Shown: positions 135 through 53,169 of the stretch, piece after piece | How the letters are laid out: the number at the start of each line of letters is the position of its first letter | Numbering within the stretch: the stretch's first letter is position 1 | From: Candidatus Acidulidesulfobacter diazotrophicus | GTDB taxonomy: Bacteria; SZUA-79; Acidulodesulfobacterales; Acidulodesulfobacteraceae | Assembly: GCA_004195025.1 (NCBI GenBank) | Contig: SGBB01000009.1 | Span: forward strand, 1-64,000 | Direction of reading: 5' to 3' | DNA length: 64,000 nt | The notes under the pieces: generated by a model | The model's input: the letters and a program-made list of their open reading frames with translations, nothing else | Told to the model about the DNA's origin: nothing | Database searches by the model: none | Program-made: the position numbers and the translations under genes

Positions 135-232
135 GTGTCATTCCTGCAAAAGCTGGAAAGTTCCGTAAGTTGTATAATTTTAATTAACCACTAAATTAAA
201 TGTGTCATTCCTGCAAAAGCTGGAAAGTTCCG
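135..232. repeat. 31-bp direct repeat pair
   Basis: Positions 135-165 and 202-232 are identical over 31 bases, beginning GTGTCATTCCTGC and ending GGAAAGTTCCG, with about 36 bases between them. The second copy continues into a longer module that recurs near 52.9 kb. The repeat contains a small imperfect hairpin (TTCC...GGAA). It looks like a REP- or MITE-type non-coding repeat. Confidence 0.85.
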
Positions 233-353
233 AAGATAGAAACGAATACCGTTTCTGTTCACGAGGCTATAAGCCGAGAGCGAAGCGGTCATCAAGTATT
301 TATTATATTTATTATATGTTAAAGCAATTTTAATAGTTTCTGACGGCGATTTA
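202..353 (+). repeat. Interspersed repeat, copy A
   Basis: Two modules are visible. The left one (about 204-293) runs from CATTCCTGC through GGAAAGTTCCGAAGATAGAAA and GAGGCTATAAGCCGAGAG to CGGTCATC. The right one (about 296-353) includes ATATGTT and TTTCTGACGGCGATTTA. Both recur at 52897-53083, where the left module is inverted but the right module is in the same orientation. There is no ORF, so this is a non-autonomous or structural repeat. Confidence 0.8.
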
Positions 354-373
354 ATATAATTAATTTAATTTAT

Positions 374-17718: not shown

Positions 17719-17991
17719 TCTTAATCCTAAACTTAATTGAATACTTATTTTATATATAATTATATGTAATTTTACTGAATTATATTTTTATAATATAATA
17801 AACTTTTATATAAAATAAATTAAAATTCAGCTTTAAAAAAAATTATTTTAAACTTATTCTAAATCAATATCAATTAATAATTGTAAGCCTGAGTTTAATA
17901 ATAATAAAATATTAATCGGGATAAAATAAAACTGAAATAATTAAACATTGCAGTAATTATCCAAAATGTTTACATAGAGGGTTTTAATATT
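17719..17991. other. Intergenic spacer before leuA
   Basis: 273 bases of almost pure AT sequence. I see no leucine-rich leader peptide, T-box, or clear terminator. The only recognisable signal is AGAGGG near 17977, the ribosome-binding site of leuA. Confidence 0.5.
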
Positions 17992-19563: not shown

Positions 19564-19590
19564 CATTTAAGCAAAATAAAACAAGAAAAA

Positions 19591-19756
19591 CCAAAATTGC
19601 CGATAGAGATTGTTAAATATACCGTAATGTATTAAGAATACTGGATTTATGCTTTCGCAGGAATGACTGCATATAGCGGGTGAAACGATAAATCTTCTCA
19701 AAGTCATTCCTGCGTGGGCGGGAATCCAGTATAAAATTTTCTATCGGCAATTTTGG
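19591..19756. repeat. MITE-like palindromic element between leuA and leuC
   Basis: A perfect 16-bp terminal inverted repeat (CCAAAATTGCCGATAG at 19591-19606, complement at 19741-19756) bounds a 166-bp element with no ORF. Inside is a second inverted pair built on ATACTGGATT...GCAGGAATGAC (about 19639-19668 and 19702-19731). The inner sequence resembles the widespread repeat found as GTCATTCCTGC...ATCCAGTAT in many proteobacterial genomes, and partial copies occur near 25743 and 53010 in this window. Confidence 0.8.
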
Positions 19757-19853
19757 GGAAAATAATAAAATTTAAATAAAATAATAAAAAATATAAATAT
19801 TAAAATAAATATATACAATATAATAAAATTTTTTTATTAAAGGGGTAATTTTT

Positions 19854-25694: not shown

Positions 25695-25742
25695 ATGCTT
25701 AATCCTTCGATAGAAATTATCAATGATATTTCAATAATAAGC

Positions 25743-25774
25743 AATACTGGATGCCCGCTTTCGCAGTCATCCAG
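25743..25774. repeat. Short palindromic repeat fragment downstream of murJ
   Basis: AATACTGGATGCCCGCTTTCGC matches the inner arm of the element at 19591-19756 almost exactly. A 7-bp stem CTGGATG (25747-25753) pairs with CATCCAG (25768-25774). No T run follows, so it is better read as a truncated repeat copy than as an intrinsic terminator for murJ. Confidence 0.6.
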
Positions 25775-25804
25775 AAAATGAAATTTTAAATGAACTTATA
25801 AAAT

Positions 25805-29575: not shown

Positions 29576-30328
29576 ATGGATACAGGTAAAGAAAATAATA
29601 AAGATTTTTCATATAATAAAAAACCGTATAAGCCTAAGAATTGGGTTGAAGCGTTTAATGTAGCTATTGAGGGTATAATTTTAGCTACAAAGACAGAACG
29701 CAATATGAAAATTCATTTTTTTTCAGCGATGGCTGTTATTCTCGCAGCTATTTTTTTAAAATTGCCGAAGATTGATTTTTTGTTAATATTTATTAGCGCC
29801 ATTATAGTTTTATTTGCAGAATTATTTAATACTTCCATAGAATATTTTCTGGATTCATTTTTCGAAGGCTATTCTATGAAAACAGCCGCAATTAAAAATA
29901 TTGCCGCAGGTTCTGTTTTAGTTGCTTCGTTCGGAGCTTTTGTAGTAGGATATGAAATATTTTCAAAATATATATATAGTATGTTATATTATATGCTTAT
30001 TATGATAAAGACCAATGAATCAAATATGATAATTGCAGTAATATCAATTATATTTGTTATAGTTATTATAATTAAAGCCATTTTTAATAGCGGAAAGCCT
30101 TTGAGCGGAGGTATGCCCAGCGGACATTCTGCTGTTGCATTTTCAATTTGGCTTATGGTGTCTCTCATAACATTAAATCCTATAGTGTCCCTGCTTACTT
30201 TTATTTTAGCTTTTCTTGTGGCGTCATCAAGAAAAAAAAACGGTATACATACTTCTGCCGAAGTCATTACAGGTAGCTTGATAGGCATTGTAATAACGGC
30301 TTTAGCTTTTAAATTTTTTTATTTTTAA
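29576..30328 (+). CDS. Diacylglycerol/undecaprenol kinase fused to PAP2 phosphatase
   Basis: The N-terminal half (about 20-125) is a DgkA-type lipid kinase: FNVAIEGI, ERNMKIHFF, and the signature VLFAELFNTSIEYFLD. The C-terminal half (about 145-250) is a small PAP2 phosphatase: GKPLSGGMPSGHS (PSGH motif) and SRKKNGIHTSAEVITG (SR-x4-H motif, with Glu in place of the usual Asp). Both parts are membrane-embedded. A kinase and a phosphatase acting on polyprenol or diglyceride phosphates in one chain suggests recycling of undecaprenyl carrier or diacylglycerol. It lies 29 bases after ybeY, where a plain dgkA is common. Confidence 0.88.
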   Translation: MDTGKENNKDFSYNKKPYKPKNWVEAFNVAIEGIILATKTERNMKIHFFSAMAVILAAIFLKLPKIDFLLIFISAIIVLFAELFNTSIEYFLDSFFEGYSMKTAAIKNIAAGSVLVASFGAFVVGYEIFSKYIYSMLYYMLIMIKTNESNMIIAVISIIFVIVIIIKAIFNSGKPLSGGMPSGHSAVAFSIWLMVSLITLNPIVSLLTFILAFLVASSRKKNGIHTSAEVITGSLIGIVITALAFKFFYF

Positions 30329-45231: not shown

Positions 45232-45558
45232 TGTATTAATCAATAATATAATTAGTTATTTTTTATGTAGTTAGTTATTTTTTATGTAGTTAGTTATTTT
45301 TTATGTAGTTAGTTACTTTTTATGTAGTTAGTTACTTTTTATGTAGTTAGTTACTTTTTATGTAGTTAGTTACTTTTTATGTAGTTAGTTACTTTTATAG
45401 TTATTTTTTAAGAACATTAATTTAATTTCCTATAAGAACAATATAAATTAAATATTTGCCTATAAATATTAAATTATTAATTTAAATAAAAATCTTTAAA
45501 TTAATTTATGTCAAATCAATTTATGTTCAAAATATATTTAATTTCAAAAAAGCAATAA
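45232..45558. other. Spacer between lpxI and lpxB
   Basis: 327 bases without a gene. The first half is filled by a 19-bp tandem repeat (45252-45396). The rest is AT-rich sequence with no clear promoter or terminator. The next gene starts with GTG. Confidence 0.7.
45252..45396. repeat. 19-bp tandem repeat, about 7.6 copies
   Basis: The GTAG core recurs at 45267, 45286, 45305, 45324, 45343, 45362 and 45381, exactly 19 bases apart. The unit is GTAGTTAGTTAYTTTTTAT, where Y is T in the first three units and C in the later five, so the array itself is subdivided. There is no ORF through it. Such an array is likely to vary in copy number between strains. Confidence 0.95.
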
Positions 45559-52763: not shown

Positions 52764-52896
52764 ATATAAAACCCCCTTATTGATTTAGCAAGTATTTGAT
52801 TAAATAATGTTTTGATATGCTATGCTTATATTTTTCTATTTTATTTTACAATGATTTATATAATACCTTAAATAACATGTTAGAAATTTTTTTCCG

Positions 52897-53083
52897 GATG
52901 ACCGCTTCGCTCTCGGCTTATAGCCTCGTGAATAGAAACGACATGCTTTTCTATCTTCGGAACTTTCCTGCCTGCGCAGGAATAACTTTGCAAAAGCTAA
53001 CCTATTAGATATCATTCATGTGAAAGCATAATCCAGTATTTATCATATGTTGAAATAGTTTTAATAATTTCTGACGGTGATTT
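52897..53083 (-). repeat. Interspersed repeat, copy B
   Basis: 52897-52982, read on the minus strand, matches copy A from ATTCCTGC through GGAAAGTTCCGAAGATAGAAA and GAGGCTATAAGCCGAGAG to CGGTCATC. 53035-53083, on the plus strand, matches the right module of copy A (ATATGTT...TTTCTGACGGTGATTTA). Between them the minus strand carries AATACTGGATTATGCTTTC (about 53018-53041), the arm shared with the elements at 19591 and 25743. Confidence 0.8.
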
Positions 53084-53169
53084 AAATTAATATTTCATTT
53101 AAACAGTAATTATATTTTGCTAAATAATTATTTTTAGATTTAAAGTTAGATTAAAATAAATAATTTTAT

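Follow-up and report, generated by a model that had tools for sequence, protein, structure and literature searches.

A modular MITE family with IS1380-type ends and probably exchangeable hairpin cassettes in Candidatus Acidulidesulfobacter diazotrophicus

The window analysed here, the first 64,000 nucleotides of contig SGBB01000009.1 of Candidatus Acidulidesulfobacter diazotrophicus, harbours two copies of a repeat which consists of two modules. A 20-mer from the core of this repeat matches exactly at 263-282 (+) and 52908-52927 (-) and still only twice when three mismatches are allowed, against 0 matches expected from 100 shuffles. The left module of copy 1 (204-293) is 89% complementary to 52897-52986 over 90 nt, with 78 identical positions over 88 nt on opposite strands. 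The right module (306-354 and 53037-53085) is identical in 42 of 49 nt and lies on the same strand in both copies. Since the core 20-mer is found twice and both modules align, the two-module repeat of the original prediction is real, and its two copies indeed differ in the relative orientation of the modules. Both copies had also been located correctly; only their limits were drawn too narrow, as copy 1 extends to about 356 and copy 2 is a complete element of 222 bp between exact 5-bp duplications. Copy 1 is truncated on its left side, and its first 31 nt are present a second time upstream. A third, coreless copy and some remnants complete the set (Table 1). Directly after copy 1 a near-palindrome with 49-nt arms and zero gap (349-446) lies upstream of a gene which we take to be pheS-like.

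Table 1. Members of the repeat family in the window, followed by further loci sorted by end type
Feature	Position or loci	Strand	Basis or remark
Partial duplicate of H1 hairpin and core start, upstream of copy 1	135-165	+	31 nt identical to 202-232
Copy 1, H1 hairpin GTCATTCCTGC..GC.GGAA	204-225	+	pattern match, sequence
Copy 1, core module (H2 and H3 hairpins)	226-291	+	66-nt core aligns with copy 2, resembles other copies
Copy 1, H3 hairpin	258-287		within core module; hairpin match
Copy 1, long terminal arm, end type A, degenerate end	292-356	+	contains right module 306-354; 42/49 nt as in copy 2 long arm
Copy 2, complete element, type A ends	52866-53087	-	core on short-arm side, 33 bp from that end; TAATA at 52861-52865 and 53088-53092
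Copy 2, core module	52899-52964	-	sequence; H3 at 52903-52932
Copy 2, H1 hairpin	52965-52986	-	sequence
Copy 2, long terminal arm, type A TIR (ATCACCGTCAGAAAT)	53028-53087	-	sequence
Copy 3, coreless element, type C ends	19590-19757	+	duplication GAAAA; absent at matching place in G006
Remnant with type B end	25698-25791	+	blastn of elements vs window
Remnant of type B end	29825-29857	+	blastn of elements vs window
Weak remnant of hairpin body	17733-17808	-	single 76.5% match, blastn
Type A transposase loci	L124, L129, L133		TIR match
Type B transposase loci	L126 (own genome), L172		TIR match
Type C transposase loci	L125, L169, L170		TIR match
Type D transposase loci	L123, L168, L173		TIR match
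H1-H3 body with B ends, sister genera	L224
H1-H3 body with C ends, sister genera	L205, L221
H1-H3 body with D ends, sister genera	L209, L212, L214, L219, L225

A complete element comprises TIRs of about 20 bp and two arms, one long and one short. Its middle part M is enclosed by two H1 hairpins in inverted orientation, and an extra core is often present. The basic unit of about 165 bp can be written as [TIR + long arm]-H1-M-H1'-[short arm + TIR], with H1' repeating the hairpin H1 in inverted form; the right module of the window is part of the long terminal arm. The core is 66-69 bp long and consists of the hairpins H2 and H3, and a form of 51-52 bp also exists. Coreless elements possess two inverted sites, CTGGATTCC and GGAATCCAG, which are mirror images of each other. 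When these were sought within 40-70 nt of one end and in the last 50 nt, the long-side site was found 54-60 bp from the end in 21 coreless elements (at 56 in 14 of them) and the short-side site 32-34 bp from the end in 20 of the same 21. In core-carrying elements the core is found at the outer flank of H1 or H1', usually with the junctions GGAA/AGTTCC...GGTCA/TCCAG (slashes mark the core limits) and without a duplication of its own.

Reading 33 core-carrying elements in the orientation of the core reveals two arrangements. In 19 elements the distance of the core from the right end is at most 40 bp, in most cases 33 bp, and M is forward; in six it is 50-65 bp and M is reversed, while the remaining eight are duplicated, rearranged or not clearly classed. 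The two relative module arrangements which had been predicted from the window are thus present across the genome, and, judged by the orientation of M, both also occur among elements with equal ends (one and three elements for type A, four and two for B, 14 and one for C). In both of them the orientation of the core relative to its hairpin is fixed. As the sites are mirror images, the long arm comes to lie either to the left or to the right of the core, and a core of fixed orientation which uses either mirror site therefore gives the impression of a flipped module. Of the inverted left module originally proposed, the two arrangements remain and the flip itself becomes unnecessary. In terms of mechanism, the core would have two mirror places to sit, each between GGAA and TCCAG at the outer side of H1 or H1'; the route by which it changes its place or its ends we can only infer. 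Two elements (L002:720-910 and L004:1499-1689) have no clear M but H3-like sequence on either side, and are possibly collapsed forms of elements with a core at each mirror site.

When copy 1 was used as query against the own genome, which comprises 2.46 Mb in 47 contigs, the best 40 of 166 candidates yielded 61 matching pieces, and at least 42 distinct core-carrying copies could be extracted from 41 fetched loci of this genome. These copy numbers are lower bounds, as the own-genome DNA searches scored the best 40 of 166 and the best 40 of 193 candidates. The further copies on which the original prediction depended are therefore present. In the own genome the pattern of the H1 hairpin is matched exactly 137 times and its reversed control not once. 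Core matches (E <= 0.001) are found in 13 of 30 genomes of the host's family and in none of 31 genomes outside it; several cover part of the core, and several of those in sister genera span only about 20-45 nt, so that a few may be due to chance. With regard to plasmid or phage spread no blastn match was obtained, and the core 20-mer occurs in 0 viral contigs and in one genome contig of a collection from which own or very near records were possibly left out.

The fetched own-genome loci contain 67 TIR-like end pairs, 61 of which carry H1; the other six were excluded from the duplication count. These 61 hairpin-bearing elements with paired TIRs have the structure of MITEs. Exact 5-bp flanking duplications surround 27 of the 61, compared to a mean of 1.37 and a maximum of 6 in 2000 shuffled pairings; 34 have no exact 5-bp duplication. 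There is no excess of flanking repeats of 2-4 bp, and two elements match at 6 bp and two at 9 bp. Also in size the family corresponds to MITEs, as its 44 same-end elements are short (163-311 bp), multi-copy and devoid of a transposase gene. Coreless elements measure 163-172 bp, apart from three of 230-237 bp, those with a partial core 216-217 bp, and those with a full core 231-311 bp, apart from one of 191 bp. The element at 19590-19757, which lies between genes presumably leuA- and leuC-like, is absent in the congener G006, where the flanks are 90-91% identical and adjoining. In five other congeners the same flanks are close together with no match to the element in between. The L025 element is likewise absent in G006, where the AT-rich spacer differs by 16 nt, so that both insertion sites tested (2/2) are empty in this genome. 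Because of the 5-bp duplications and the empty sites the units look transposed, and modularity, which had been taken as an argument against a simple transposed unit, loses its force. The gene context of 49 elements is codirectional in 21, divergent in 14, convergent in eight and unassigned in six cases, and no full element (0/49) lies inside an ORF of at least 90 aa. A role as terminator was rejected, as only eight of the 49 contexts are convergent.

TIRs starting with CC in combination with 5-bp duplications, which we took to indicate IS1380, gave the initial pointer to a transposase. The profile PF13701 is found in nine of the 30 family genomes including the own genome, whose protein at L126 reaches 203.5 bits against the NCBIfam IS1380 model NF033539 (cut-off 180). 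Eleven of 14 transposase loci scanned have TIRs of the MITE end types A-D, as would be expected for IS1380-derived MITEs, and three partial loci (L127, L131, L171) have no TIRs of these types. The end types of the MITEs were assigned from hand-written consensus TIRs, leaving 14 of 63 elements without a clear type. In a tree the eleven transposases, of which three are fragments, group by end type, and members of different groups are 24-39% identical. We thus confirm a real, modular MITE family with IS1380-type ends, whose putative cognate enzymes are IS1380-family DDE transposases. According to these matches the MITEs would be moved in trans, each end type by its own transposase clade. The anatomy, the duplications, the empty sites, the matching ends, the common core and the paired hairpin changes described below were established directly from sequence. 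We consider it very probable that the family represents non-autonomous MITEs whose ends and hairpin cassettes are interchangeable and which transposases of the IS1380 family mobilise in trans.

The distribution of the enzymes follows that of the MITEs in some genomes but not in all. In favour of this reading, G000 and G006 are the two of seven congeners which have both full-length IS1380 genes and many MITEs; of the other five, G005 has a short IS1380 transposase fragment. In the own assembly, which consists of 47 contigs and may have lost multi-copy genes, the type B enzyme and weak short fragments were found and no transposases of types A, C and D. Their absence counts against a simple story of current activity; type C elements occur in this genome in near-identical, apparently young copies despite the missing type C enzyme. 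Similarly, G009 has no PF13701 hit, yet harbours MITEs with B, C and D ends.

Comparing elements of different end types reveals that their cores are nearly as similar between types (identity 0.85, 188 pairs) as within types (0.88, 112 pairs), while the outer 15 nt of the left TIR have an identity of 0.60 between and 0.84 within types. The higher identity of the interior (0.85 vs 0.60 between types) is perhaps partly due to query bias, as the queries that detected most copies were cores or bodies, and a conserved interior is thereby favoured; the H1 pattern search does not use the core. In the own genome the same core lies between A, B and C ends, and in sister genera a related H1-H3 body lies between B, C and D ends (Table 1). 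Among the 30 loci L200-L229 there are seven, each from a sister genus, in which neither side has a TIR at up to 5 mismatches. These findings have to be weighed against the idea that types A-D are diverged descendants of one MITE which always carried the core, the coreless forms being deletions, with no exchange having taken place. The subterminal arms are, by eye, partly similar between end types, and core-carrying and coreless forms both exist for types A, B and C, as such a descent would allow. We nevertheless regard it as unlikely, not only because of the identities given above but also because a type A and a type B element (L003 and L008) have cores identical over 66 nt. Moreover, clearly mixed-end elements have a duplication of at least 5 bp in 0 of 5 cases, in contrast to 27 of 44 same-end elements (Fisher p 0.014, small n), a pattern to be expected of products of recombination between inserted elements; 14 further elements whose end types are not clearly assigned include four with a duplication. 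The core would, as we infer, have spread between end types by recombination or by hairpin-mediated copying between near-palindromic elements. As H1 and H1' are inverted repeats inside one element, one could also imagine that recombination between them inverted the internal segment and so created the two arrangements. Such an inversion would turn M around with respect to the arms, while the core would stay in its place. However, in both clear arrangements the orientation of M to the long and short arms is constant and it is the core that changes side (e.g. L069 vs L011), which largely refutes this route and leaves it with scarcely any credence.

Two further explanations start from the hairpins themselves. 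The H3 apex occurs in 24 distinct forms which, counted with one row per distinct apex, have Watson-Crick pairs in 64 of 72 cells (mean of 27 and maximum of 53 in 20000 shuffles), and of the 100 H1 copies counted out of 137 matches, 85 have T-A or C-G at the variable pair. This shows that the palindromes are maintained; a role as RNA does not follow from it. A structured RNA or regulatory cassette under selection on RNA folding, with mobility being secondary, would account for these compensatory pairs and for the strong RNA folding of L027, the one element folded (z -7.3). However, folding of the same element as DNA is nearly as unusual (z -6.5), and template-switch correction of quasi-palindromes would also yield paired changes. 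Together with the unfixed position relative to genes, the two empty sites in G006 and the lack of a match to Rfam in the window at gathering thresholds, this makes the RNA explanation improbable. Even less probable in our opinion is that the repeats are REP, BIME or REPIN sequences spread by a RAYT (tyrosine Y1) transposase, the arrangements being alternating REP units. The short hairpins, some of them solitary in relatives, would fit, and Y1_Tnp genes are present in 19 of 30 family genomes, nine of which have RAYT-like genes with weak scores and open frames of 213-268 aa. When ten fetched RAYT-like loci were scanned (exact H1 pattern, H2 and H3 with one mismatch; three loci with one flank below 130 bp at a contig end), a single locus contained hairpin motifs (H1/H2), and these lay some 3.2 kb away from the gene. 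The TIRs and 5-bp duplications of complete elements are typical of DDE transposition, and on both grounds a RAYT/REP origin is disfavoured. The REP-associated transposase which had been suggested as a partner is thus replaced by matching IS1380 DDE enzymes. The RAYT-like Y1 transposase genes (G000:C36:3217-3546 and relatives) occur once per genome in several family genomes, and the present hairpins are not close to them.

Outside complete elements, H2 (AAACGCRYGCCGTTT) is found in 21 of 30 family genomes and in one of the 31 others, with four matches of the reversed control (two family and two other genomes), and in sister genera it is, by eye, often solitary. H3 is found in eight of the 30 family genomes and its reversed control in none. 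In L148, L166 and L151 (around position 1500; from G028, G025 and G022) a solitary H2-type hairpin lies in the T-loop of tRNA-like 3' halves, which we assume to be Arg-like twice and Met-like once. ARAGORN detected no tRNA in four loci with solitary H2, nor after trial removal of the hairpin, and in L148 and L166 no tRNA 5' half was seen within 160 nt on the upstream side. Other solitary H2 hairpins lie seemingly inside reading frames which read as transposase- or integrase-like (L052/L155, L059/L164, L143, L149, L150). In L050/L207 (G019) H3 follows shortly after the ATG and seems to read through in frame within the predicted protein.

With respect to benefit for the host, the family is probably selfish. 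A more far-reaching reading, which we put forward as no more than a tentative and rather doubtful one, is that the H1-H2-H3 cassette parasitises transposons: it would enter near-palindromic MITE bodies at the mirror hairpin sites independently of any one transposase and ride at least four divergent IS1380 lineages, and H2 and H3 would in addition spread as single hairpins, by way of genes and tRNA remnants, across much of the host's family. The anatomy further suggests how a palindromic element can grow, namely by hairpins being added at mirror-image sites.

A MITE is generally regarded as dependent on the transposase which recognises its ends, and the target duplication of piggyBac elements is TTAA. 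No earlier description of an IS1380 element like the present one was found in the literature searched (one library). The family resembles the coral CMITEs, which may be regarded as its nearest precedent. CMITEs are MITEs mobilised by piggyBac, their ends start with CC[C/T]T and their interior is more conserved than their TIRs; cross-mobilisation by several related transposases was proposed for these elements (PMC2872659). IS1380, in turn, serves as the outgroup of piggyBac in a further study (PMC10813416). The two groups of elements share ends beginning with CC[C/T] and an interior which is more conserved between families than the TIRs. In contrast to the coral elements, the present family is bacterial, has four end types matched to four transposase clades, has an interior of exchangeable hairpins with the core at either of two mirror sites, and combines an IS1380 enzyme with varied 5-bp duplications instead of piggyBac with TTAA. 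The CMITE authors cautioned that using the interior as query biases towards interior conservation (PMC2872659), and because most of our elements were found with core or body queries this caution applies equally here. One interior between ends which match four divergent transposase clades would be the bacterial counterpart of the coral CMITE puzzle, in the related IS1380 group, and with candidate enzymes named, it becomes testable how a MITE changes its transposase.

Other known elements show partial likeness. The Tn3-derived TIMEs are also non-autonomous, have TIRs and 5-bp duplications, are moved in trans, and inter-copy recombination has been suggested for them; however, they have 38-bp ends of the Tn3 family and are usually single copy, and 'mosaic' there denotes larger elements built from TIMEs and not common interiors with swapped ends (PMC4133298). 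Correia elements and other prokaryotic MITEs are likewise short, multi-copy, non-autonomous and bacterial, but the inversion mentioned for Correia elements concerns the element and not a module at alternative internal sites (PMC10969869). In the main text of this review the term IS1380 is absent. The Rickettsia palindromic elements treated there are palindromic as well and recall the solitary H2 and H3 which seemingly lie within reading frames in some relatives, whereas the full elements of the present family lie outside ORFs of at least 90 aa in all 49 cases (PMC10969869). REPs, BIMEs and REPINs with their RAYTs share the small hairpins in inverted pairs, some of them solitary, but the present elements have TIRs and duplications, and no RAYT neighbour was found (PMC3116915, PMC2817692).

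The window contains two additional repeats. A tandem array with a 19-bp unit (ATGTAGTTAGTTACTTTTT) occupies 45246-45396. A second short dispersed repeat, approximately GTGAAGTTGGGCTAA, is found at 117-131, and similar near copies lie beside elements in L005, L020, L031 and L070.
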